Assembly: GCF_037392515.1 (NCBI RefSeq)
Contig: NC_090290.1
Coordinates: forward strand, 55,130,753-55,194,752
DNA length: 64,000 nucleotides
Reading direction: 5' to 3'
DNA from: Haliotis asinina
Lineage: Eukaryota; Mollusca; Gastropoda; Lepetellida; Haliotidae
Part shown: positions 24,319 to 57,342 of the stretch, in pieces
How the letters are laid out: the number at the start of each line of letters is the position of its first letter
Position numbering within the stretch: position 1 is the first letter of the stretch
The notes under the pieces: model-generated
The model's input: the letters and a program-made list of their open reading frames with translations, nothing else
Told to the model about the DNA's origin: nothing
The model's database searches: none
Made by a program: the position numbers and the translations under genes

Positions 24319-26216
24319 GTGAAAGCAGTTAATTATTGTAATAAATTTACATGCTATGTTTATAATGGCGATGGCAGTAGATCACGCTGTAATTTCGTTT
24401 TAGAGAACATAAAAACAAAGAAAAATAAGGGAAAAATACATGAATCTTGAACTACCGTTCACACTACATTATACTGGTCATTTTATTTTCAGATAAGAGG
24501 GCTCATCCTGACGCTATTGTAGTGACGGGATCACCAAGCCATTTTAGCGATCGTAAATCGCAACTAAACACGATGCTGCAAGTCCTCAGACCTGCTGTAA
24601 ACTTCATTCAGGTTAAAATTGACACTGAGAAAGAGACCATCAAGACGATGGAGGACACACGTGCCGAAACAGAGAGTGACATTAAAGCATATGTTGAAAA
24701 ATTGATAGGAGACATCAAGGGAAAGGAAAAGGTCCTCACCAAAGACCTCAACAATTCTTATGACATAAAGAAAACTGAAAGTGTAGAAAACATAAAACGT
24801 TTTCAGAAGCTGGTAGAGGAAACACAAGATACCATTGGTCTGATTGACCGTCTCTTGTCCCCTGGATCGGAGTATGCAACCATGGAGTGCCTGCCACGAA
24901 TTCAGAAGCAGCAGGAAGATGTCATGAAGTTTGTTACTGATCCACCAGTCGATAGTTGCCCCGTTCTGTTTTCATTTCAAGGAAATGTCAAGTACGTTCA
25001 GTCGTTAATGAGTAGCCTGGAATTAGGGTCGATATGGTCAAACTCCGAAGGTGAAGCCATGAATGCGGTTGGGGGCCTAGAGACGTGGAAGAACAACACA
25101 CAACCAGAGAAAAAGGTTTCAGTCCCAGCAATGCAGAGATATCACGGACCCGCAGTGCCGGAAACATTCGATCCGAGGCATAACTTACATACTGTCCCGG
25201 AAACTCCAGGACAGAGATATGACGCTCCGAGAGCACAGGAGATTTCAGATCAGAGGTTGAACATACCGAGACTACAGGAGATTTCAGACCACGAAGCTTC
25301 ATCAGACAACGGTGCTGATCCATCACCTCGACCGCCTGAGCCTCCCGTCACAGTCCCGATTCCGACCGAACAACCACACAGCCCGTCTTACGTTCTTCAA
25401 AGAACAATAAACACAAAGCTTGATGAAGACAACTATGATCCCGAACTAAGGAATATCGTTATCCTCCAACCGAAAACGTCACCTGTGATATTAATTCTCG
25501 ACTATGACAATGCAAGTTTGAAATCTTTCTACGAAGTCGATGGCCAGCCCAAAAGTAGTTCCCATCGATTCAGCGGTTATCCGCAATCTATTGCCAAATT
25601 GTCGGAAGAAAGAGTCATTGTTAGTCTCATGAACTATAAGTTTTTCGTGTTTACCTCAGATCTTAAACAAGTGAATAGCATTGAGAGCGAGAAGTGGTAC
25701 ACATGTATGACGACAGTGACAACACAGGAAAAACTCCTCGGTTTCGTCAACACAACGACCACAACGATAATAGGTGGGAGGTTAGCCGTTCTTGATCACT
25801 TGACGGTGAAGGGAAAACCATCAAACAAGTTCATCAACACGGCGCCGCTGGAGGGAATGTTCACTGAAGTATCCCATTTGTGTTCCGCGCCAAATAACAA
25901 TATTATTGTCAGCGACTGTGGCAACCACGACGTCACCTGCATCTCACTTGAAGGCAGTCTTCTGTGGAGGGTAGAGCCGCGTGACCAGGAACTCATCAGT
26001 CCCGTCGGAGTTGCCTGTGATTCCAGAGGAGATGTGTTCGTTGTCGACAAGGACAAAAACTGCATTGTGAAGATTTCTGGTGATGATGGTGCTGTTATTG
26101 GTGATGTTGTCACACGAGACATGGGTCTTCAGAACCCAGTAGCTCTATCGCTGGACGGTGCTGACAGAATCTACGTTGCACAGGCAAATGGGGAAATAAG
26201 CGTGTTTTCCTTGTAG
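24036..26216 (+). CDS. RING / coiled-coil / NHL-repeat (TRIM-like) protein, 2 exons
   Basis: Exons 24036-24318 and 24493-26216 join in phase 1 (AGAG|gtgaaa, ttattttcag|ATAAG), giving 668 residues. Residues 14-56 form a C3HC4 RING (C14, C17, C29, H31, C34, C37, C53, C56), the E2-binding module of ubiquitin ligases. Residues about 120-235 are rich in K/E/Q heptads and predict a coiled coil. A Pro-rich linker (about 300-400) contains four or five imperfect copies of a 16-residue motif (PxxxEIsDqR). The C-terminal 250 residues hold NHL-type blades, e.g. SPVGVACDSRGDVFVVD and NPVALSLDGADRIYVAQ. No B-box zinc cluster is seen between RING and coiled coil. The architecture resembles invertebrate TRIM-NHL/TRIM56-like proteins, which act in RNA control or innate signalling; which applies here is unknown. 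Confidence 0.85.
24493..26216 (+). CDS. TRIM-like gene exon 2: coiled coil and NHL repeats
   Basis: Starts after ttttattttcag with DKRAHPDAIVV (phase 1) and runs open for 574 codons to TAG at 26214. The preceding open sequence from 24447 is intron, since it contains the polypyrimidine tract and acceptor. Confidence 0.88.
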
Positions 26217-29604: not shown

Positions 29605-29735
29605 CTTTGAAGGCATTAGGTTAGGGTTATGGTAATGTTTAGGTTTAGCGTTTAGGGTTTGAGTAAGGTTTAGGGTTAGGGTACGATTTAGGGTTAGGGT
29701 AAGATTTCTGGTTAGGGTTAGGGTAAGGGTTACGT
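29605..29735. repeat. Interstitial telomere-like tract (degenerate TTAGGG)
   Basis: About 120 bp dominated by ttaggg, tttaggg and gttagggta units with interruptions. TTAGGG is the usual molluscan telomere unit. The variability argues for an old interstitial tract. Confidence 0.75.
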
Positions 29736-31747: not shown

Positions 31748-32944
31748 TCAATAGTTCAAAGCGTTTCCCACCACAAAGAATACAATTGTGATGGTGCTTG
31801 TCAGGATAAGGAAAATTACAAAATACAGTTTCTCCACTGCCGCTGACACTGTTTGCCATCCGAGCTCATCATCTGAACAGTCAGCCTTATCCGTGATGTT
31901 ATTTTTCGCATTCAGCATCCACCTGGAGAATGAAGACATCTTCTCACCGACAGGACCAGTGTCACGGTTGTAGATCTTGAGTACATGGACTGTAAGGATG
32001 ACTTGAAGGACACTTAATGTCATCATGATTCCAAGGTAGAGGGACAGGAGCGATACACTGTCAGAGTTCCTCGGAAGACTGTCTCCAAGGAACGAGAGGA
32101 ACACTGTGAAGGAGAGAAGCATGGTGACGGACACGGACAGCTGCTCTCCAGATGGGACTGGGATAACAAATACAAACGGGTTAAGAAAGGACAGCAGGAG
32201 TATTGGCAGGATCAAATTCAGGACATAGAATGTTTGAAGGCGAATAAGATCTATCTCCATGGTAACGACACTGAAACGTTTCCCCGCAACGAACTCCTCA
32301 TCTGTGGTGATTCTCGTGCTTTGCAGCAGCCATTCTCCATTCCCCTGATAGTGTTCCAGCACCGCGTTTTCATACCTCCCTCGCAGATTTACGAAGTCTT
32401 TGGTGTAAGACCATGTCGTTACGTCCATGAAACATTTTTGTTTGTCAAATGGGTAAGCAGTGATGTCAATGTAGCAGTACAATTTGACTACATCACCTAC
32501 AGACCATGCAATAAATCCTGTGCTTGATAATCTCAGCTGTATTTCACTGTTTCCCATTTTCTTGTATGGATTAGTGGAAGTCGCTAATACGATGTCCGGA
32601 CGCCAGACTTTATTCTGAGGTATGGAGAGAAAGTCCACTCCTCCATAATCAGTTGGCTCCCATTGCAGAATCCCATCCGTCCAGGAAACATCAAGGTACA
32701 TATTCAGGGTTATGATTTGTTTGGCTTCTTCAACTTGGAAAATACTCAGAAGATTGATGACAATGTCCACATCGACAGTATCACTGGAATTCAAAACAGG
32801 ACGCAGTATCGGATTATATTGCTTGCTCTTCAGCAACTCTTCTGTCAGACGGAAATGTTCATTGTACGAGGTGTTAAATGCATTTGCATAATCCTGTATA
32901 TTTGTTCCAAAGAACAGTGACACGAACGTCCAAATCCAAATCAT
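31748..32944 (-). CDS. Nicotinic acetylcholine receptor-like subunit (Cys-loop channel), single exon
   Basis: Open for 398 residues from ATG at 32944 (minus). Residues 1-22 form a signal peptide. The extracellular domain has the W-rich loop A region (WRPDIVL), and a Cys-loop of exactly 13 residues between C's (C-YIDITAYPFDKQK-C). TM1 to TM3 follow: a TM1 with LILPILLLSFLNPFVFVIP, a TM2 starting SGEQLSVSVTMLLSFTVF with a glutamate at the cation-selective -1 position, and TM3 with YLGIMMTLSVLQVILTV. A short M3-M4 loop and TM4 (YFVIFLILTSTITIVFFVV) end the protein. The vicinal cysteine pair of alpha-type loop C is absent, so it should not form a principal acetylcholine site by itself. A cation channel subunit needing partners is the likely role. 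It has no introns in the coding region, suggesting a retrocopy-type origin within an expanded molluscan family. Confidence 0.9.
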   Translation of the reverse strand: MIWIWTFVSLFFGTNIQDYANAFNTSYNEHFRLTEELLKSKQYNPILRPVLNSSDTVDVDIVINLLSIFQVEEAKQIITLNMYLDVSWTDGILQWEPTDYGGVDFLSIPQNKVWRPDIVLATSTNPYKKMGNSEIQLRLSSTGFIAWSVGDVVKLYCYIDITAYPFDKQKCFMDVTTWSYTKDFVNLRGRYENAVLEHYQGNGEWLLQSTRITTDEEFVAGKRFSVVTMEIDLIRLQTFYVLNLILPILLLSFLNPFVFVIPVPSGEQLSVSVTMLLSFTVFLSFLGDSLPRNSDSVSLLSLYLGIMMTLSVLQVILTVHVLKIYNRDTGPVGEKMSSFSRWMLNAKNNITDKADCSDDELGWQTVSAAVEKLYFVIFLILTSTITIVFFVVGNALNY

Positions 32945-33784
32945 TTTCCTTCGCTTGGAGATATAAAACCTACATCAACACTCGCGTGTTGTTGGTTGCC
33001 AACGGCTCGGCTGATACCTCTGTGACAACTCCAGCGTTCTCAGTTTCAAACAATAAAACACATTAAACCAGGGCCGTTTCATATGTAATTAAAAATGAAT
33101 TATCCCCAGGGCTATGTTAAATAGTGTCACTGTATTCGTTTGCAAAGCTGACTAAAAATCAATGACGAATTGTAAGAGCCATTTCACTAACATTTACCGT
33201 CAGCCCTTAGTTATCATGTAGTTGGATATATTATTCACTCTATTTCCTCACTAATGGGACTTCTTTGGTCAGTGTCTGTGCAAGACTGTTTATATCACGT
33301 CTATAACCAATAGAATGGTCCTTTCACAAGCTTTGGGTATGCCAGTGGTAAATACTTTAATTTATACCGCTTTAAAGGATGTGGCTGATAAAATCCCAAC
33401 TCAATCATCATTTCTGTCTCAAAGGAAATCATCCGTATGGATGAATGCACATTCAAATGTTGAACACGACCTTGGATTCGATAATTGAGCAAACAGTGGA
33501 CGAGAGGTTCAGAAAAACTACAAAAGAGAAACAACATACTTGTTGAGTAAACAGTACAAACTGGAACCTAATTAAGTGTACAGATATTCAAAATCCATGT
33601 TTAAGCGATTAATTACATATGTTTTCTCGTATAGAAGCAACATAAATTCAAGAAATACCTCACATCCGTGATCTGCCATCTCGATGTGTGTTCTTCTCAA
33701 CATGGAGGTCTTCTAGCTGACCGACCCCATGTGCTTCCGATCATGTGTTCGATTACCAGGATGTACATTGTCGTAAATTTGCAA

Positions 33785-37393: not shown

Positions 37394-37548
37394 TCACTGG
37401 GCAATAGCGAGAGCCTGAGAATGTTCCTTGGCCTTGAGGCGAAGCTGTTCAATGCTTGAGGACCTGGGATTGGCTTCAGCCATACACTTGCCACTGTCCA
37501 GATGGACCCCGTTGTGGTTTAGTGTATCGTGGCCGGTGAACTCCCGTC
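37394..37548 (-). CDS. Homeobox gene exon 6: OAR motif and stop
   Basis: Acceptor ctttttttaag|GAC (weak A/G before AG but pyrimidine-rich). Two bases complete the phase-1 codon, then [24 protein letters not shown] and [22 protein letters not shown] with TGA at 37396-37394. The OAR motif (also called the aristaless domain) is specific to paired-like homeoproteins and reported to restrain transactivation; finding it on the same strand 3.8 kb beyond exon 5 in the right phase confirms the gene's end. Confidence 0.88.
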
Positions 37549-39105
37549 CTTAAAAAAAGGTACATGTACATGTACTTCAGATGGTTATCACAACACTGAT
37601 CACTACTAGATGTATTACGTAAAACGTCAGATGAAAAATGAGTTTCAAATATTTTTCAAAACATATTTTATACGAGGTTAATGACCAAAACGACGCCACA
37701 AATATATGTGTTCATGGTCGAATGAGCAGGTTTCAACACCATGTTTGTTCGTATCGCCTACAATGAATATGATTATCTCGCTCCCGAAAGTGCACCTTCC
37801 ATCATTGACACTTTATTCGGATTTGGACCCTTCCCAACAGATTCTATGGGTTTCCAGGAGCATTTCTTAGTACACTTACAATCTGATTGGACAAATCTGA
37901 CTATTTGTAGTGACGCTTAGCAACTGATCGTGTCGGTGGCGTGTGGCCCTGTGTATAGAGCTCAGGTCACAATCAGTCGTGTTTGGCAGCTTGACTATAG
38001 AGAGTTTCTAAGACTTCAGCCCTAACTCACACATGAGACTTGTTGTTTCACCTTTGGCAAGAGAGTTTGTTCAAAAGTGCCTCTCTTCACCAAGCAGAAA
38101 ATAGTTATCCGGTGGGATAGCCTTGTGACCTTCTAGCGTCTCACATGCAGTTTGTGGTATCGAGGTAACAATAATCATACTGGAGCGATTTCAGCATGTT
38201 CCTCTGTAGTGTGCAATGCAGCGCATTACAAATGCCCCTAATATTATTGTTTTGATTTTGTGGAGAACATGAAGGTACACTGGTCATTAGAGTACACGCA
38301 ACTAAACTAGACGGCAAAAGAAAGTATAGGTGGAGTTTGATGAATGTTAAACAAAACACAATAAATCAAATTGGCAAAGTGTGTGCATATCGTGAAAGAA
38401 GGGTCAGTGATCTTTAATAGGCCACAAAATGACTGGAACACAGGCAGCACATACCATGAGGGCGTTAGTTGAACGATGGTGGGGTCCAACAACTGTTGAC
38501 GATTCCTTAACCGTCTGCTCAGATGGTCCCACAGATGCTCTATGGCTGTCATGTCGGGTGAACAGGCAGGCCGAGGGAGAACATCAACATTGTGGCGGTT
38601 GAGGAAGTCCTGTGTCAATCTTGCTGTGTGGGGTCAGGCATTGTCATGTTGACACACTATCCGCTGTGGCTGGTTCCGCAAGAATGGAAGCACAAGAGGG
38701 CGCAGAACCTGCTCTCTGTACTGAACGGCATTCAAGTTCCCTTGCACAATGACCAGGTCAGTCTTCTGTTCCCCACAGATCCCTCCACAGACCATAACAC
38801 CTCCCCCTCCGAACGGATGGACCTCTCGGATGCATGGTGGTGCTAAACGTTCACCTCGCGATAAACTCTTTGTTTACCGTCGTTCTGGAACAACTGGAGA
38901 CGACTCTTGTCAGAAAACAGTACTCGGCGCCATTCTCGCACTTGCCAGATTCGAACTTGCCTCGCCCATTGTGACTTTCGGCGTCGATGTTGTGCTGGCA
39001 GGAACATTCCTCTGAAGGGACGGTAGGCTCTGATGCCTGCAGCACGAAGTCGTCGGAGTACTGTGAAGTCGTCGTTGGCTGATGCAATGTCCCAGCGCTG
39101 TTGCA

Positions 39106-39136
<31 letters not shown>

Positions 39137-42100
39137 CCCTCGCCGAACCTGTTGCGTAAATGAATTGTTCGAATTCGTCGATCGTCTTGGGGTGTTCTGA
39201 CACGTGGTCTTCCCGTTCTGGGTCTGTCTGCAGTCCTTTCTATCTGTCGGTAACGTTGCAGCTGCCTTGATGCCGTTAAAGGTATGCATCCGTACCTTTG
39301 TGCAATCTGGACCTGTGTTGCTCCCATCTGGTGCATACCAATCGCCATTTCTCGCTCCTCCCTTGTCAGTCTAGGCATATCAATTGTGTGCTTTTGTCAA
39401 CTGTGTTGTCAACCCATTGTTTCACCTTGTTTACACGCCAATTCGGCACGTGGATCTCCCTCTGCAGCCTTTGCACGTGTTTTACCATTTTCTGGTGCAG
39501 CGTGGCACCACCGGTCTTGATGTGTTTGGGAAATGAGATTTTGCATCCATGTGCTTGGAGACAACTGTCTGAATGTATACATTCAACCAGCTATCAACTT
39601 TCACAGTAAATTGGCTTTTTCCGACCTATACTTTCTTTTGCCGCCTAGTTTAGTAAGGCACTACAAGGATAGATACTTGCAGTCACATTTTTTGCAAGAA
39701 CACTTAACGTCAGAAAATGCAAGTGTACTGTGTCTTGGACTCAGATAGCACGGGTCTACTTGGGCACTTACTATCAGATAGCACGGATCTACTTGGGCAC
39801 TTACTATCAGATAGCACGGGTCTACTTGGGCACTTGCCATCAGATAGCACGGGTCTACTTGGGCACTTACCATCAGGTAGCACGAGTCCACTTGGGCACT
39901 CACCATCAGATAGCACGGGTCTACTTGGGCACTTACCCTCAGATAGCACGGGTCAACTTGGGCACTTACTATCAGATAGCACGGGTCTACTTGGGCACTT
40001 ACAATCAGATTGGGCACTTGCCATCAGATAGCACGGGTCTACTTGGGCACTTACTATCAGATAGCACGGATCTACTTGGGCACTTACTATCAGATAGCAC
40101 GGGTCTACTTGGGCACTTACCATCAGATAGCACGGGTCTACTTGGGCACATTACCATCAGATAGCACGGATCTACTTGGGCAGTTACCCTCAGATAGCAC
40201 GGGTCTACTTGGGCACTTACTATCAGATTGGGCACTTACCATCAGATAGCACGGGACTACTTGGGCACTTACTATCAGATAGCACGGATCTACTTGGGCA
40301 CTTACTATCAGATAGCACGGGTCTACTTGGGCACTTGCCATCAGATAGCACGGGTCTACTTGGGCACTTACCATCAGATAGCACGAGTCCACTTGGGCAC
40401 TCACCATCAGATAGCACGGGTCTACTTCGGCACTTACCCTCAGATAGCACGAGTCCACTTGGGCACTCACCATCAGATAGCACGGGTCTACTTGGGCACT
40501 TACCATCAGATAGCACGGGTCTACTTGGGCAGTTACCATCAGATAGCACGGGTCTACTTGGGCACTTACTATCAGATTGGGCACTTACCATCAGATAGTA
40601 CGGGTCTACTTGGGCACTTACTATCAGATAGCAAGGGTCTACTTGGGCACTTGCTATCAGATAGCACGGGTCTACTTGGGCACTTGCTATCAGACTGGAC
40701 GAGTCTACTTGGGCACTTACCATCAGATAGCACGGGTCTACTTGGGCACTTACCATCAGATAGCACGGGTCTACTTGGGCACTTACCATCACATAGCTCG
40801 GGTCTACTGGAGTATTTACTATTAGATAGCATGGATCTACTGGGGCACTCATCATCACATAGCACGGGATTAATGGGGCACTTACCATCACATAGCGCGA
40901 GTCTGCTGTGCACTTACCATCTGACTGGACGGGTGTGCTGGGATACTTACAATCAGATTGGACCCATCTATTGGGGCACTTGTCGTTAGATTGCACGAAT
41001 CTACTGGAGCACTTACCATCTGACTGGACGGGTCTACTGGAGCACTTACCATCAGACTGGGCGGGTCTACTGGAGCACTTACCATCAGACTGGACGGGTC
41101 TACTGGGACACTTACAATCAGATTGGACCGATCTATGGGGGCACTTGTCGTTAGATTGCACGAATCTACTGGAGCACTTACCATCTGACTGGACGGGTCT
41201 ACTGGAGCACTTACCATCAGACTGGACGGGTCTACTGGAGCACTTACCATCAGACTGGGCGGGTCTACTGGAGCACTTACCATCAGACTGGACGGGTCTA
41301 CTGGAGCACTTACCATCAGACTGGACGGGTCTACTGGAGCACTTGCCGGCGTTGGCGAAGAAGGATGACAATGAGGTTTGGCTAACTGATGTACTGAAGG
41401 GGGGAGTCCAGTCAACGCTTAGGTTCCCATGGAAATACATGCTGGGAAGGGGAACTCCGGTGATTGAGGGGACGCTTGTGAGGCTGGTATTTTGGAGGCC
41501 ATTGGACGGACAGTTTCTGTGGATCTTGGAATTTGGTGGAAGCACTGTAAAAAGCAACAAAGTGACAGACATGTCGCCTCATAAGACGCATTTACACACA
41601 GTGAAGTGACCAGTACCTGCCGTATACTATGTGGGCAGAGACACGCTGAGATACATGTTGCCATTGCCTTAGTATATGTACATCAATACTTATCGGTACA
41701 TGGATCAGCTGTATTCCAAAAAGTGAAATAGAAAAAGAGAAATAGAAAATAATAATCCCAAAGTCTCATGTCTCAGGAGTAAGGTACATGTGTGATCGAA
41801 GGAACACTGATATGTTGCCGACAGACCACAGGGGCTTGTATTGCTGAAAATAATATGTCCTGAGTCCAACAAGCCTACACTGATATCCATACACATATAA
41901 AGAAGGAAAGGGACTCTAACGCGCACAAAGTTGTCGAACAACCCACTCTCGATTATGGGCGAATTCTGGGTGGGAAACTGTGGAACATACAGCCGCAGTT
42001 CTTACTGGAATAAAGCCAGATAAACTCCCTTCCGAATGAATCCAAAATTATCAAAATCGGTGCACTATGTACCGAGTAACTTTGCTTAGAACTCGGGAAA

Positions 42101-45100
42101 AGGCAACTTTTTCATTTGTACGCCAAAAACATGCCTACGAAAATCATCGCCTCTCGAAGAAACTCGTACGATGTATTTCACTTTAAAACACCCGATCGGC
42201 AAAGAACACAGCATTACCGTAATCGATAGATATTTCGCTTTCGTTCTACAACCTCTCAAATGAAATAGGTTATTCTTTTACCTGCTATACACGACTTTAT
42301 TGGGAAATTAGCGGTATCGAGTGATCGATTCCACCATGTTTGTCCCTCACCCTCAATAGGCTCGCACCAACACGATATATTGCACCACGAAATATAAATG
42401 ATACTGGTGTTTTGTTTTTGACCAATCAGAGAGCAGCTCGTCGTTGGTGCAAACCTCTTTACATAGTGCACCGATTTTGATAATTTTGGATTTATTCGAA
42501 AGGGAATTTATCTGGCTTTTTGTTCCAGTAAGAATTGCTGCTGTATGTTCCACAACTTCCCACCCAGAATTCGCCCATAATCGAGAGTGGGGTGTTCGAC
42601 AACTTTGTGCGCGTTACATGCCTTTCCTTCTTTATATGGGTATGGATATCAGTGTAGGCTTGTTGGACCAAGGACGTATTATTTTCAGCAATACAAGCCC
42701 ATGTGCGACAGACCACGGATACGAAGAAATTCACAACACAATCATAAGAAATGAATGTACCCTAACATGCTCTCTTATTACCCTAGATCGGAATGTACCA
42801 TGCTTTTCGTGTGGCGTGATTTTGTTACAGTAAATTACGTGCTCAGCTAACTCTGACTGCGGATCAAGTTCCCCACCTTGTGATGTCTCTGGCTCTTTGC
42901 CTTGCTGTTTCTGCTGTTTCCGCCATTTAGCTCGTCTGTTCTGGAACCACACCTAATGGGGGGAGTTGGTTGTACCCAAAAAAGAAATACATCCAGGTCA
43001 AGATTGCACGCCAAACCAATATGCCAGATACATGGCCATACAATGTAATTGAGGTAAAATAAATGCAGTTCATTAGATCTCAATGAGAGAAAAAAAACCC
43101 AGCATAAGTATTTAATACACTCTTATGCGTGTCAGTATCGATTGCGAATAATGTTAATATATTCTCGTCGACTTTAATTCATGTTACATTAGCTACACTT
43201 GATGATGAATAAACATAATTTTACGGCGGTTAAATAACTAGGTCACCTAGGCTGTCCTTGTAAGTTATGGACTGACAATAATGATGATGAACCGATCATG
43301 TCTTCGTGTCCAATCACTGCTCATTATCTTAACCACTTGTTTTCCTAATCCAATCTGGATTATATACTAGTTGGTGTTTGAGAGATAGAACACTACAACG
43401 TGTTACATGACATTAAATGTGTACATGGCACCTGAACACGTGCTTCTGTCAGATCTATTTTCAATGCTAGCTCCTCGCGGAAAAATACATCCGGGTAATG
43501 AGTCCTTTGGAAAGCTTTCTCAAGCTCCTCCAGTTGGAAGCTGGTGAAGGTAGTGCGGTAACGTCGTTGTTTGCGTCTCGGTTGTCCATCTGGAAGATAT
43601 ATACACATGCAGGGATAAAACACCAGATACAGTTCAGGCACTGGGTTTGACAAGTCTAGAATATTACACGACGGGATGAAGAGTGAGTGAGTGAGTTTGG
43701 TTTTACACCGCACGCAGCAATATTCCAGCTATATGGCGGCGGTCTGTAAATAATCAAGTCTGGACCAGACAATCCAGTGATTAACAACATGAGCATCGAT
43801 CTGCGCAACTGGAAACCGATGACATGTGTCAATTAAGTCAGCGAGCCTGACAACCCGATCCCATTAGTCGACTCTTGTGACAAGCATAGTGGCCTTTTAT
43901 GGTAAGCATTGGTTGCTGAAGGCCTAGTCTACCCCTGGACCTTCACGGGTCACGGCGTGAAGAGCTGAGACAACGGTTCATACACGAATCAACTGACTAA
44001 ACATTTTGCAACAGTGAAAACTGACACATTCTGTTCAAAACTTAACGGCCACTCCAAGAAGAGTCAAAAGACAATTGCCAATATCTGATGCCTACACGCT
44101 GATGGTTTTGGTGACGTGCGTAATGTACATATCGGGTCCTTAGTGACATTCTCGGCATACGTTCCTATCTTTGTTGTGTGTTGTACGGGGCAATATCTCA
44201 TCTCTTGACAAATATTTCGGAGTAGACCGGTGTATTACAATTATGCATTCTATGATACTGCAACACGAAACGCATCCGGTGTTGTCCTAAATCTACACTT
44301 TCTTATGCTACAAGTACAGTTAAGCTATTTCCACACTCTGTTCCCTGAAATTATTGAATTAATTAATTAAAGTAGTGACTACCAAGTAAATAGGCGAGAC
44401 TCGATCAGTCTGTTATGGATAACACTTAAAGCATAAAATATTACTGATTGTGGAGATAAAATACCACATAACCTAAGATCCGTTTTCAGATTTACTGGGA
44501 CATCGTTTTCAGATTTACTGGGACATCGTTTTCAGATTTACTGGGACACCGTTTTATACAGTGTTGTTCAAGATCGTATGAAACTGGGAATCACGTGACA
44601 GACCACCTCACCTTACGTGACGACCAACCATCGTTGACACGATCTCATATCGTGTTACCTTACGCCTTACCGGTTATCGATAAACAAACGTTGCAAAGGT
44701 ACACTGTGGGGGAAAATACCAAGTAGTTCATCACATTTCGCATCACGAAACTGGAGTCATCTGAGCAAATTGTTCCTCTGTGACACATTTATGCGCAGAT
44801 TACGGCGTTCTGAGCATAATTTAGTGGCAAGTAAATTATATTCCATCACAATAGTTTAAGTACGAAATTATCGATGACACAGTATTTTGTTATCACCATG
44901 GCATTCTACCCATCGACGATACTGCCTATTTCTTTTAGCCAAGTCTAGTAAGAGGTATATTTTGCATAGCCTACATTTTCACAGTGTGTCAGATTATACA
45001 CGTCACTGTTTTTTTTTCTTGTGACCAGACGTAATATTTGCGCAGTAGCTATCCATTTTACGAAAGGATTCTAATTAGAAGTAAGTAGCAAGACGTTTAA

Positions 45101-49699: not shown

Positions 49700-52600
49700 T
49701 CACACACAGTCACACACACATACACACACACAGCACCACCATCACCACCACTATGGTCGTTGATGTGTCATTACATTCTCCCTGGTTGTGTGTATCAAAG
49801 TGATAAAGCCATCGTGTTAAAACTTCTGTGTAGGGTGGCACACATACCTTTCGGATATTTACTTTTCGCGAGCGCCATGTCTAACACGAAGTCATGCTGA
49901 AGCATTAGTTCAGTGTATTTGCTATAATATATTTATGAAATGGCAGTCACTACATTTGACCCTGGAAGAATGATGCCACATCATCCCGTTACGCCGAAGC
50001 AAAACTGGATATCCATTTCAAACATCCTCTGATGTATGGACAGAGAATACTTACGAACAGTGCTCGCATCAAAATTGACTTTAGATTCCGGGTTGAATAT
50101 ATCGTAATTATCAAGCCTTGGTTCGTTGTCTTCTTTTGCCGAGGAGGAGGAGGAGCTTGAATTCGGCGTGAAGCCTGGAAACAAAAATGAACGTTTTAAA
50201 GTCTCACTTAAACACATTTGCTTTATCCGTCAGTGTCATTGTCATCAATGTCGTAAATGCATGTTAACTCTCCCGTGTTATACATAATCGAAATGTAATT
50301 GTTTATACAACATATGTCATATTTGGGATTTCACTTTCTCAGTAACATATGTCATATTTGGGATTTCACTTTCTTAGTAACATATGTCATATTTGGGATT
50401 TCACTTTCTCAGTAAAGTACAAATTCTAGTACTTTTTTGGTTGAGTCCCATTAATTTTTTTATGTTTATATCAACTGAACTGAACAATCTCTGAAATTGT
50501 GCATTCTTGTGTTTCATTCACATCAGCCGATAACAATGCTTATCCTTTCAGGATATTTCCCAGTAATTGTCGTTACACATTCCTAACCCATATCAGTGAT
50601 TGTGAGGAAGGATAACAGCTTATGCATGAACACCTTCTTTATTACAACGACCTCGGGCGACGTTTCGGTGTAGTACTAACACCGTTATAACGCAAGACTT
50701 GACTCTCACTGTAATACAGAAGTTCTTCATTCATTTACTGATATCCTTTCTTCGTGCTCCTACCCTAAACGCCTAAACTACATCTATACCAGTTATGTCC
50801 GCACAAACTGGTCTCAACGCATCTTGAGTTTGTGTCAGTAAATCTGAACCTTCTGATTCTTGAACACGTCGGGAACTTTACTACCTGGCACACTGTCGGC
50901 CTCACAACAGAAAGACAGATTGTCAAGTCAACGTACAACTACACAAGATAGAATGTTTGTAGGTAAATAACTAAACAACTCCATTTGGAACCACAAGGTT
51001 TTTTTTATATACAATGAAATTAAAATTAAAATCCAGTCACAATACTAACATTGTTCGAGCAAGGTGAATTTCACTCTCGTGCATACTAGTACCAGTACAC
51101 GATTTTCCAAAATTAAAACATATTGTGTGCTGATAAATGAACAAATACATTTTGAGTGAACGACATAAATTCTGTGTAGAACTTCGATGCGTGTGTTCAG
51201 CCAGCGTCGCAATTTGCCATACCCGTCCTAGCCAATGTTTGCAACCAAAACAAGTTCATTTAGATAAAAGACAGTGATGACTTCTTTCTGTTTCTAAAGG
51301 GGGACACATCACATCCAAAAAGGTGACAATGTTCTTCTGTGAGAACGGGTACGATATGCTTTACATTAAATACTTGAAAAAACTCGAAGCTAATGGCGAC
51401 CTGTGACGGTTTTACCATATGCTGTATCTGCAGTTTTCTTCTGGGTGGCACTTGTGACGCAATACATGCTTATTTTCGAAAACATATATCAATGCGAAAA
51501 AAACTGTTAAGAATGGATGCTCAGTTCGAGCACAGGATACTCTCTCCAAACTGTATCACTACTAACTGTAATTCTTCTGTGTCCCTGGAGCATACAAAAA
51601 GTACCTACATCTTGTTCAGCTTGACCTGAGCTACTCTACATAAGCGTGACCCGGGAGGTCAAATGGCACAAACGACTGGTCGAGTTAAATTCATTAAATA
51701 GCCGAACAGAGAATGTGGTTAATTTGTGCGTTCTTGCGAAACATGCATACATGGATTCGTTACAGAACTTGTCCCGGATAACAACTCTTCTGAAAAACAA
51801 TCATTTCATGTTTTCAGTGAATTGTCTGTTACAGTGATAAAGTAACAACTTTGGTTTACAACGTAAATTCAGTCACTTTTACAATCTGATTCACTGCTGT
51901 CTTAAAGCCCGAATAGGAAACATGAAACAATCTGTAGCTAATTGTTTAAAGAAAGTTAGGACATTGCTGACGATTTCTGAGATGTTAAACAGCGATCTTG
52001 TCTCGGGTGTTTTGACATATTGACAATCAGCTGACAAAGTCGCACCCCTCCACAATAATAGACCCAACCAGCTGTGGCAGGGTCACGCAGTGCATTAGTA
52101 TGTACTTTATCAGGTCAATCGGAACTACCTGTTATGATCCTACACGTAAAGATCCGGTAAGAACATGTCTTCAGCATCCCACGTTTGTCATAAGTGGCGA
52201 CAAACGGGATCGGGTGGTCAGACTCGCTGACTTGGCTGACATATGCCATTGTATCCAACGGTGCATATCCGCCATGCTGTTGATCACTGGATTGTCTGGT
52301 CCAGACATGATTATTTACACCCACAAAAGATGATGTCTGCACTGGAGTTAACCCAGTCAGACATTTGCTGTGTATCAAGGGCTTCTATAGTGCTACATTT
52401 AATTTGTGTAAGGTCAAGTTTGGACCGTTCTTTCTTCCTAGAAATGTCATTTTCGTAAAGGGTATACATGGAAAAACAATTGAGTAAACATAATTTGGTT
52501 GTATGTAGACGAAACCACAGCCTATGGCAATGTCTCTGTAAAATGTTTCCTTATCTGACTCTCCAACTCCTGAAAATGCAAATCATAGTGTTCTACCATG

Positions 52601-55600: not shown

Positions 55601-57342
55601 TTATATGGACAAATATTTGATGCTTGCGGTCCACAAAATATAATATAATATAATATAATATAATATAATATAATATAATATAATATAATATAATATAATA
55701 TAATATAATATAACATAATATAACAATTTCTATCATGCTTTAATTAATAGGTTTTTTATGAGGCAGGAATACTGTCGATGAAGCTATGATGTCGAACCTT
55801 ACCTTCCTCTATCCATTAGGAAGCTATTTATCTAAAATCTAAACACAGTTATGTCATCAAGACAATAACATTGAAGCCATAGACAAATAAAAAGAGCCGA
55901 CAGTTACCAAGAACGACGGGGTGAGAGTGCTGACTGCGGATGATGCTTTTCAAGCATGACGATGTTCAAAACTATTCTAGGAAGGCAGCAAATGATTCAG
56001 GCATCAACAAAATCTGTAGATGCTTAATCTAATAACATCGATATCACCACACGTTGTTTTTGTTAGCTGAGAGTGAGGAAGTATGATTTTAGCCGCTTTT
56101 TACCAGACATGGGCTTCACACGTCCTACCACATGGGGAATCGAACACTAACAGTAAATTACATGTTGTCCGCTTTGTTATTTTCTGGTAAGTTGTTTCTG
56201 GCTTATGGACGTAGGAACAAATTGTGACGAGTGACTGGGTTTTTCGAAGACGTACGGTGAGTTTCTAGAAGCAATCTGGACAATGACCAAAATCGGTGAA
56301 AGGCACGTCAGATAAGGCCACCCACGCTGCTCTACCTAGTCTCAAAAACTGTGCCTGGAATTGTGATGTTCATCTTTGTGCGACTTTTGAAATACTGTGG
56401 CTTGGAGACGTTTTCACGGTCGCAATATTTACATTTGATGGATTTTTTCATTTGCAAAGGATCTGATGCCCAGTGAATATTGACATACATTTGCATGTGT
56501 TTGTGACATCATTCTGACGGGGTGTGTTAGAATAAGTGAATAGTGATTATACACACATCACATATCTGATACAGCCAGAGAAGTATAAATCTTCTGATGA
56601 ATACAACAACTTTACAGAGAGGAAAAAACAGACTGAAAGGAAATCTCCACACCCACATGTTGCGAACGTATTGCACTTTTAAATCTTGTTCGGCATACAA
56701 AACGAAACTTTCCTGTGTTATGATGATACCAACTGGATAGGATAATTGTTGTGTTAGCCTTAGTTAAGAGAAGTGTCTTATCTAACCACTCTTATCATTA
56801 TTCGGCATTTCGTATGCCAGGAGCACCAGAACTGACCTCTTGTTATTGTTCTCACGTGGTGAAGTGAACCCTGACCTTCAACCTTTACCTAGCTTTCATT
56901 GTCTCAACCGTTCTCTTACATGGATCCAAACTTAAGCATTTGGAGAAGATCTTACCACAGTAACAAGAGCAAAATTTGTCCTTATTCACATATGATCATT
57001 TTAGTCACAGTCCAACCTGAATTTGCAGCTGGTGTATAACGCTATTACATAAATTACTATAAAGATGCTTAATTGGAAGCAGTGGACCAACTTACCTAAA
57101 TATCTGTCGTCGAAACCATTAGTAGGGTGGCTTGGGTGGATGGTGTTTTCTCTGGGTGGAGTGTTGGGGTGGTGATTACTGGCAGGCTGGGACGGGGCAA
57201 GGAGACCATTGACTGAGTAGGGCCCAGGGGTCGGGCGCACGCCGAAGTCAGTCATGGGCGTCCCCGGGTGGTAATAGCGTCGGTCTGGTCCGAGGGTGGG
57301 GTCCTCATCGTCTACGAGTCGAGACTGGAAATAGCTATCCAT
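37394..57342 (-). CDS. Paired-like homeobox gene, aristaless/ARX/Pph13 group, 6 exons
   Basis: Six minus-strand exons join in phase: 57342-57096, 50174-50055, 43589-43432, 42952-42877, 41544-41347 (or to 41314 and beyond) and 37548-37394, giving 317 residues with the shortest exon 5. Residues 42-49 (YSVNGLLA) resemble the eh1/octapeptide Groucho-binding motif. Residues 130-189 are a Q50 paired-like homeodomain, split at 46/47, with [21 protein letters not shown] and [13 protein letters not shown]. The C-terminus carries an OAR motif ([18 protein letters not shown]). The homeodomain is closest in my memory to aristaless, ARX and insect Pph13 (the FFREEL variant is Pph13-like). It should be a nuclear DNA-binding regulator of development; its tissue is unknown. 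The gene spans 20 kb and its introns hold several mobile elements. The variable end of exon 5 is the main oddity. Confidence 0.9.
38305..39650 (-). mobile_element. Near-complete Tc1-like transposon with both TIRs
   Basis: About 1346 bp. The inverted ends aactagacggcaaaagaaag (left) and their complement ctttcttttgccgcctagtt (right) differ by one base, and both are flanked by TA, the Tc1 target duplication. The transposase reads on the minus strand from [19 protein letters not shown] at 39378. It lies in the same strand as the host homeobox gene. Length, TIR identity and intact catalytic motifs suggest a recent insertion, though coding lesions remain. Confidence 0.92.
38400..39378 (-). pseudogene. 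Tc1-like transposase (DD34E), recently broken
   Basis: N-terminal helix-turn-helix region ([37 protein letters not shown], then [15 protein letters not shown]), then the catalytic core: [14 protein letters not shown] (first D), RIVCQHDNA (second D) and [15 protein letters not shown] (E). Between the second D and E there are 34 residues, the DD34E form. A GAGGGC-type hexanucleotide expansion (39112-39145; Gly-Glu repeat) sits where the reading frame changes, and a TGA follows the HDNA box. So the protein is not made as one chain from this copy. Confidence 0.88.
39742..41346 (-). repeat. 33-bp minisatellite whose units carry 5' splice sites
   Basis: About 48 units of 33 bp. Two subtypes: one near exon 5 (41346 to about 40910; plus-strand core accatcagactggacgggtc) and one farther away (about 40900 to 39742; accatcagatagcacgggtc). 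On the minus strand most units contain TGATG|GTAAGTGC or a close GTAAG variant. Blocks of units are themselves duplicated: for example, a five-unit (165 bp) segment starting near 40946 repeats at about 41111. A few truncated units (near 40008, 40225 and 40575) shift the frame. Because the unit is a multiple of three, long open frames exist on both strands ([22 protein letters not shown]); outside the exon 5 reading these are not genes. Confidence 0.93.
41347..41544 (-). CDS. Homeobox gene exon 5
   Basis: Acceptor gttgctttttacag|TGCTTCC. In phase 1 after exon 4 it reads [31 protein letters not shown] and [22 protein letters not shown]. The nearest possible end is a GC donor, GCCG|GCAAGTGC (41347/41346); the first GT donor, GATG|GTAAGT, is 33 bases on (41314/41313) and adds [11 protein letters not shown], as does each later unit. 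All give phase 1. Alternative frame: if exon 4 ended at GAGCAC|gtaatt (42839), exon 5 would stop after about 42 codons, so this is less likely. Confidence 0.8.
41545..42876 (-). other. Homeobox intron 4
   Basis: 1.3 kb from AAG|gtgggg to tttttacag. Mostly filled by the foldback palindrome at 41831-42701. Confidence 0.75.
41831..42701. mobile_element. Large foldback (inverted-repeat) element
   Basis: Left arm 41831-42071 and right arm 42461-42701 are reverse complements over about 240 bases with only scattered differences, e.g. ccactctcgattatgggcgaattctgggtggg against its complement around 42570. The 389-bp spacer is unrelated. No transposase or clear target duplication seen; a non-autonomous foldback element or two head-to-head insertions are possible. 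Confidence 0.85.
42877..42952 (-). CDS. Homeobox gene exon 4: helix 3 end
   Basis: Acceptor ccccattag|GTGTGG. Encodes [18 protein letters not shown] and KEPETSQ, ending CAAG|gtgggg in phase 1. The exon starts at homeodomain position 47. Confidence 0.88.
42953..43431 (-). other. Homeobox intron 3
   Basis: 479 bp inside the homeobox, at the conserved paired-class 46/47 position. Nothing else recognised. Confidence 0.8.
43432..43589 (-). CDS. Homeobox gene exon 3: homeodomain helices 1-2
   Basis: Acceptor gtatatatcttccag|ATGG. Encodes [38 protein letters not shown] and [15 protein letters not shown], then |gtgcca. The ATG at the exon edge is not a start codon: upstream phase continues through it (codon CAT). 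Confidence 0.93.
43681..43962 (+). repeat. Dispersed repeat family B, full copy
   Basis: From GAGT run and ggttttacaccgcacgcagc through ctgtaaataatcaagtctgg, gaccagacaatccagtgat, tcagcgagcctgacaaccc to tgaaggcctagtctaccc and cttcacgggtcacgg. This is the most complete copy and serves as the reference for the family. Confidence 0.92.
44488..44558. repeat. 23-bp tandem repeat, 3 copies
   Basis: Unit cgttttcagatttactgggacat, three nearly identical copies. Confidence 0.92.
46362..46590. repeat. Compound microsatellites (ATGT)n(GT)n ... (GATA)n/(GGTA)n
   Basis: A GT tract of about 25 units flanked by ATGT runs (46362-46470) and a GATA/GGTA mix at 46525-46585. Confidence 0.95.
48287..48357. repeat. 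(GGGTGT)n microsatellite
   Basis: About eleven perfect hexanucleotide units. Confidence 0.95.
48395..48452 (+). repeat. Family B fragment (right end)
   Basis: cactggtcgctgaaggcc and acaccggcacgggtaacgtgag match the right end of the family. Confidence 0.5.
48700..48868 (-). repeat. Dispersed repeat family B, reverse copy
   Basis: cccatgcttgtcgtaagagg, cgactaacgggatcagg, gctgatcactggattgtctg and gtccagacttgattatttac in order. Confidence 0.88.
49616..49732. repeat. (CA)n(CT)n microsatellite
   Basis: CA run, then about 30 CT units, then interrupted CA. Adjacent polypyrimidine and CA repeats lie about 0.3 kb from exon 2 on the antisense side, so the homeobox transcript would read GA and TG repeats. 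Confidence 0.95.
50055..50174 (-). CDS. Homeobox gene exon 2
   Basis: Acceptor ttttgtttccag|GCTTC and donor TTC|gtaagt. Encodes (G)[38 protein letters not shown]. It has a polyserine run and is exactly 120 bases, phase 1 to phase 1, so it could be skipped without frame loss. Confidence 0.85.
50309..50415. repeat. 35-bp tandem repeat, 3 copies
   Basis: Unit catatgtcatatttgggatttcactttctcagtaa, written here in parts catatgtcatatttggg and atttcactttctcagtaa; three copies with one difference. Confidence 0.93.
52140..52322 (-). repeat. Dispersed repeat family B, reverse copy
   Basis: gtttgtcataagtggcgac, aaacgggatcgggtgg, tcagactcgctgacttggc, gttgatcactggattgtctg and gtccagacatgattatttac in order. 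Confidence 0.9.
55638..55724. repeat. (TAATA)n microsatellite
   Basis: About 17 pentanucleotide units, the last ones with a C substitution. Confidence 0.97.
56071..56150 (-). repeat. SINE family A fragment with internal deletion
   Basis: tgattttagccgctttt is joined directly to accagacatgggcttcacac and acatggggaatcgaacac, so the middle is missing. Confidence 0.65.
57096..57342 (-). CDS. Homeobox gene exon 1: start and eh1-like motif
   Basis: ATG at 57342 begins [20 protein letters not shown]; then [14 protein letters not shown], the octapeptide-like YSVNGLLA (residues 42-49) and a Pro/His-rich stretch to DDRYL. Donor TTTAG|gtaagt is strong, phase 1. The upstream frame holds no earlier in-frame ATG in good context that I could see, so this start is the likely one. 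Confidence 0.85.

Follow-up and report, generated by a model that had tools for sequence, protein, structure and literature searches.

In a homeobox gene of Haliotis asinina, the only strong GT donors able to end predicted exon 5 lie inside a tandem array of 33-bp units that begins at the end of that exon and carries a splice donor at the head of its unit. We refer to these repeated donors as rungs. The gene occupies the minus strand of the stretch of DNA analyzed (64,000 nucleotides, hereafter the window) in a genome of 1.14 Gb, and is predicted to have six exons. The best explanation, which we give an even chance of being correct, is that a donor-bearing minisatellite grew from the start of intron 5, that its first few rungs compete with each other for use, and that the remaining rungs are neutral. 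Use of two or more rungs is a prediction from the anatomy described below. The predicted exons are as follows.

57096-57342, minus strand: predicted exon 1, with ATG and donor TAG/GTAAGT (slash, splice junction), phase 1 at its end; its frame is open, as is the joined CDS
50055-50174, minus strand: predicted exon 2, with weak donor TTC/GTAAGT (score 4.2)
43432-43589, minus strand: exon 3, first part of the homeodomain, with weak donor CAG/GTGCCA (score 3.5); a homeobox match in the search of the gene's own genome
42877-42952, minus strand: exon 4, remainder of the homeodomain, with donor AAG/GTGGGG, phase 1
41347-41544, minus strand: exon 5 as far as the array, 198 nt, a linker open in one frame; acceptor tttttacag/TG
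37396-37548, minus strand: exon 6, with the OAR motif; acceptor cctttttttaag/GA at 37548, which needs phase 1

By sequence, this appears to be an aristaless/Alx-like gene of the PRD class, to which we assign no single named orthologue. Its homeodomain exceeds the Pfam cut-off (PF00046, E=1e-23), WFQNRR can be read directly in it, and by the usual numbering the domain has the Q50 of the PRD type. Among solved structures the homeodomain is nearest to aristaless (E=1.4e-35), followed by ALX4 as judged by name. The OAR motif is likewise above its Pfam cut-off (PF03826, E=2.8e-8) and scores 36.9 bits in the genome search. Another gene of the same genome, L092, presumably looks more like al/Arx, and we take the peptide YSVNGLL in exon 1 to be octapeptide-like. 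The splice position of exon 3 is that found in 20 homeobox exons examined in the same genome. Exon 5 itself is a prediction based on its open frame, its acceptor and the fit of its phases: it is in phase 1 at both ends (1-1 symmetric), and when it is closed at the first rung (41313) the six exons join into an unbroken CDS of 328 codons with consistent phases. A search of the same genome gave no clear second copy of exon 5 and no clear relative of its linker, the three other matches having E values of 1.02, 2.13 and 2.86.

The array fills the start of intron 5.

39741-41346, minus strand: tandem array in intron 5, with 50 units (45 of 33 bp, one of 32, one of 34 and three of 19), the unit beginning at donor position +1

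TRF calls the array at 39741-41344; cutting at the donor core yields the 50 units and moves the start to 41346. The 33 bases preceding 41346 match a unit at 8 of 33 positions, so the left edge of the array coincides with the candidate exon end at 41346/41347. An earlier, sequence-only reading of this DNA had placed a tandem array at the end of a homeobox exon 5. The array and its starting point agree with our unit cutting, and exon 5 does belong to a homeobox gene, but the homeobox itself lies in exons 3 and 4. The units comprise 33 distinct types. The 13 proximal full units share the consensus GTAAGTGCTCCAGTAGACCCGTCCAGTCTGATG, and the middle and distal units follow a second consensus, GTAAGTGCCCAAGTAGACCCGTGCTATCTGATG. 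Mean unit identity peaks at a lag of 5 units in the proximal part (0.90) and at a lag of 18 in the distal part (0.93), from which we conclude that blocks of units were probably duplicated, with the 19-bp units carried along. The array was found nowhere else in the genome by a search that skips very common words: both unit forms matched only within the array (13 and 14 matches). On this single-locus result, obtained with very common words skipped, we rejected the idea that the array belongs to a dispersed repeat family. The open frame that runs through the array (40226-41542, minus strand) exceeds the Pfam cut-off for Mucin-like PF16058 (34.4 bits against 28.7; residues 327-380, E=2.8e-8). We took this for a chance match of a cysteine-bearing repeat, probably a matter of composition, and rejected a known protein-coding repeat family on that basis.

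To compare donors, we used a generic matrix of general animal frequencies, not fitted to this genome. Its calibration set was 20 homeobox exons, selected out of 150 homeobox matches for having a match that stops close to residue 46; the top-scoring site of the scanned stretch stood at the same homologous place in all 20. Within the array 24 sites score at least 9, as against 39 in the rest of the window on both strands (about 0.31 per kb per strand), and other 1605-bp stretches of the window hold at most three such sites each. The word GTAAGT occurs 34 times in the array, 48 times on the whole minus strand and 22 times on the plus strand. The typical array donor, with a score of 10.6, is stronger than 13 of the 20 homology-placed donors of other homeobox genes in this genome, and exceeds three of the four other donors of its own gene (11.0, 4.2, 3.5 and 8.4). 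The donors of exons 2 (50055, 4.2) and 3 (43432, 3.5) are weaker than all 20 calibration donors, the lowest of which scores 5.3. Of 200000 random 33-mers set in tandem, 2034 carried a donor scoring at least 9, and RGTAAGT triplets at array-like spacing number 8684 genome-wide versus 20094 for the reversed pattern, both figures being counts of overlapping matches that include simple repeats and not counts of loci. On the triplet counts we rejected the array as a rare sequence type, such tandem triplets being common in the genome and not enriched.

Where exon 5 ends depends on what else is on offer. Upstream of the array, the best GT site in the exon scores 2.7 (at 41438) and is in the wrong phase for the OAR exon. 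At the very start of the array stands a GC site.

41340-41346, minus strand: array-start GC site, GCCG/GCAAGTGC, score 3.9

The first GT donor of the array, at 41313, already adds one unit. Beside a row of donors scoring 10.6, the GC site and the 2.7 site are unlikely winners, but both stay conceivable because the gene's own donors at exon 3 (3.5) and exon 2 (4.2) are weak too. Since the best preceding GT site scores 2.7 against 10.6 for an array donor, exon 5 by this scoring very probably ends inside the array, and the protein would therefore include at least one unit, that is, 11 residues.

The consequences for the C-terminus follow from the reading frame, and the strong rungs of the open part form three blocks.

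40917-41313, minus strand: rung block 1, nine strong phase-1 donors (41313, 41280, 41247, 41214, 41181, 41082, 41049, 41016, 40917); OAR kept
40588-40885, minus strand: rung block 2, five strong phase-0 donors (40885, 40786, 40753, 40720, 40588); OAR lost when joined to 37548
40239-40569, minus strand: rung block 3, six strong phase-1 donors (40503, 40470, 40437, 40404, 40371, 40239); OAR kept

A frame shift caused by the 32-bp unit at 40917 puts rungs 40885 to 40588 in phase 0, and a 19-bp unit returns rungs 40569 to 40239 to phase 1. The frame through the array stays open until about 40225, and the four remaining strong rungs lie beyond the stop. Among the strong donors of the open part (41313-40239), 15 of 20 thus keep OAR and 5 lose it. 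When all sites scoring at least 4 are counted there (n=28), 20 keep OAR, 6 lose it and 2 make a TGA at the junction; at the weaker GATT/GT sites 41115 and 40950, the TGA arises with the GA that begins exon 6.

Several statements of the sequence-only reading can be set against these results. Taken as a whole, its observation stands as regards the array and its left edge, the U1-type donors, the OAR phase and the open frame: many units do carry strong donors (24 scoring at least 9, GTAAGT 34 times), the OAR exon at acceptor 37548 does need phase 1, and the in-frame part that it drew to about 40230 agrees with the stop that we locate. Other details need correction. Most units were said to contain GATG/GTAAGTGC, but GATG/GTAAGT is present in 19 of 50. 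Every in-frame donor was said to leave phase 1, which fails for the 5 of 20 strong donors downstream of the 32-bp unit, so that a ladder free of frame loss describes the 15 rungs that lead into OAR and not all rungs. Finally, an exon 5 with 0 extra units was proposed, which would be possible only with use of the weak GC site at 41346.

If the array grew from the 5′ end of intron 5, as we propose from its anatomy, the unit represents the first 33 bases of the intron including the donor, and hence each new unit copied the splice site. Many near-identical sites can be bound by U1 snRNP, of which the spliceosome retains one, and in work by Hodson et al. (2012) competing 5′ sites were reportedly bound by several U1 snRNPs first and reduced to one later. 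U1 snRNPs would accordingly be expected to occupy many sites spaced 33 nt apart, with one being kept. With donors of equal strength, position and exon length would decide among the rungs. The donors of the rungs at 41313, 41280, 41247, 41214 and 41181 are the same, and their surroundings nearly so; exon definition favors a short exon, so most splicing should be divided among these first five (41313-41181; exon of 231-363 nt). The resulting proteins would carry one to five additional units of 11 residues, placed between the homeodomain and OAR. Distal rungs would be minor, and the middle block, whose frame can be read from the DNA, would yield OAR-less proteins wherever it is used. A preference for the intron-proximal 5′ site is known in vitro and could favor the distal rungs, so the winners are not firmly predictable.

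A single fixed rung is the alternative that fares best, and we regard it as rather unlikely though worth serious attention. Here a single site, presumably either 41313 or the array-start GC site (41346), would close exon 5, and the rest of the array would be a silent intronic repeat whose donor copies are a by-product and rarely used. Closed at the first GT donor, exon 5 is a normal exon of 231 nt, the other donors bear no clear sign of selection, and the genome has many tandem repeats that contain GTAAGT, if fewer than for the reversed pattern (8684 vs 20094 triplet matches). However, the five donors from 41313 to 41181 are identical and lie in near-identical surroundings, and the singling out of one of them must rely on position alone. 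It is improbable, in our estimate, that transcripts normally lack a junction between exon 5 and the OAR exon, exon 5 being either skipped or read to the stop near 40225 as an alternative end with intronic polyadenylation. Skipping would keep the frame, exon 5 being 1-1 symmetric and exon 4 joining exon 6 in phase 1, and candidate signals for an alternative end exist within intron 5 (AATAAA at 37817, ATTAAA at 38418). Both versions have to contend with the good acceptor before exon 5, the strong donors that follow the exon, and phases compatible with both neighbors.

A regulated ladder, in which the tissue or a splicing factor sets linker length and OAR presence and which selection maintains, would find some encouragement in the differing outcomes of the strong-rung blocks (9 with OAR, 5 without, 6 with). 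Its bearing on selection can be read from the conservation of the donor core, which we defined as the six donor bases plus base -1 and whose entropy was compared with the rest of the unit over 32 unit rotations. With the 45 full units taken together, half of the rotations (16 of 32) had entropy equal to or lower than that of the donor core. In the 13 proximal units the core varies a little less than the remaining bases (entropy 0.29 vs 0.40; 7 of 32 rotations reach or undercut the core), but in the middle and distal parts it is more variable than the rest, with 29 of 32 rotations equal or lower in each. Among the distinct changes in proximal units, 8 of 20 are silent against 25% expected (p about 0.1 by hand). 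We thus rejected selection on the ladder: donor-core conservation shows no clear excess, being slightly raised proximally and lowered in both the middle and the distal part. The core does not stand out clearly from the remainder of the unit in its conservation, so nothing here points to selection keeping the ladder in place, though weak constraint may act on the core in the proximal units. The frame blocks, moreover, arise from accidents of unit length, namely the units of 32 and 19 bp; the latter form is present three times, which looks as though it had been carried along in copying. Altogether we consider a regulated ladder highly doubtful. The simplest reading of the array is a neutral minisatellite sitting on a splice site, and under the competition of a few proximal rungs that we prefer, the rungs would persist through units being copied from one another and not through selection.

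The intron that houses the array looks peculiar to this gene among its paralogues in the same genome, as judged from sequence comparison. The genome holds nine OAR matches including this gene (OAR exons L090-L098). Directly before OAR, 27 residues are open here versus 87-194 in 8 of 8 other OAR genes found. Six of these eight have the second part of the homeodomain in one open frame with the linker and OAR; in the other two (L091 and L095) an intron may lie within the open stretch. Derivation of intron 5 from the array is a possibility. The most far-reaching scenario, to which we give the least credence of all, joins a young intron 5, formed as a donor-bearing minisatellite split an ancestral last exon of linker and OAR, to a ladder acting as a selector of length and domain, with proximal rungs giving OAR-containing proteins with 1-13 extra 11-residue units, middle rungs giving OAR-less ones, and copy number shifting allele balance.

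Two further features lie in intron 5 beyond the array.

38301-39654, minus strand: Tc1/mariner-like element with 31-nt terminal inverted repeats that are 97% complementary; reading frame broken
37818-37907, minus strand: probable decayed array units, with profile matches at E=0.011 and 0.14 (whole masked window)

The element, whose class name Tc1/mariner is our presumption, lies 86 bp beyond the array, with its inverted-repeat arms at 38301-38331 and 39624-39654. A transposase search returned weak helix-turn-helix matches below the cut-off in one stop-free frame; the longer stretch holds stops. The decayed units are on the far side of the element, so the array may once have reached further. 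Elsewhere in the window, a 408-residue open frame at 31748-32974 (minus strand) matches a Cys-loop ligand-gated channel (E=3.4e-46 for the ligand-binding part and E=2e-14 for the transmembrane part), a 590-residue open frame at 24444-26216 (plus strand) contains NHL repeats (E=4.5e-7) and is presumably TRIM-like, and a telomere-like tandem repeat of GGTTAG type lies at 29619-29732.

If several rungs are used, this would be a further case, after human IFI6, in which the choice of donor converts minisatellite copy number into different protein isoforms, and the gene concerned encodes a developmental transcription factor. The frame blocks would then make the array a switch for the presence or absence of a regulatory C-terminal motif. 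A row of equal 5′ sites, one every 33 nt, would also offer a natural experiment on how the spliceosome chooses among them by position alone. If one rung is fixed, the array is an ordinary intronic repeat.

The supply of splice donors by a minisatellite is, as a principle, already known from human IFI6. Turri, Cuin and Porter (1995) reportedly described the IFI6 minisatellite as supplying several splice donor sites. The units of IFI6 measure about 12 bp and add 4 or 8 residues. Apart from IFI6, our literature search, which covered titles and the starts of abstracts with subscription papers mostly outside its scope, returned no other minisatellite donor ladder. Introns arising from tandem arrays were reportedly treated by Zhuo et al. 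(2007). One study of human genes, compared with transcribed sequences, describes tandem arrays that alter exon-intron structure and splice-site choice (PMC2812944). Like the cases in that study, ours involves minisatellite expansion at an exon-intron boundary; unlike them, it lies outside human genes, and an origin of the intron from the array is here only possible. Aristaless/Alx-type genes of the PRD class combine a PRD-type homeodomain with a C-terminal OAR (PMC7719703). Our gene shares both and differs from the other OAR genes of its own genome in having an intron shortly before OAR. In human IFI6 (6-16/G1P3), minisatellite units serve as splice donors, and three mRNA species that encode different isoforms result (PMC4526556). 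The array described here resembles that of IFI6 in spanning the predicted exon end at 41346/41347 and in having a unit that holds the donor consensus (24 donors scoring at least 9). It differs in its 33-bp unit, in its 24 strong donors, in a frame that changes along the array such that 15 of 20 strong successive donors keep OAR and 5 of 20 do not, and in lying in a transcription factor gene. Use of several donors is reported for IFI6, whereas the donors here are known from the sequence of one assembly; if two or more rungs are used, the present case would join the IFI6 kind.
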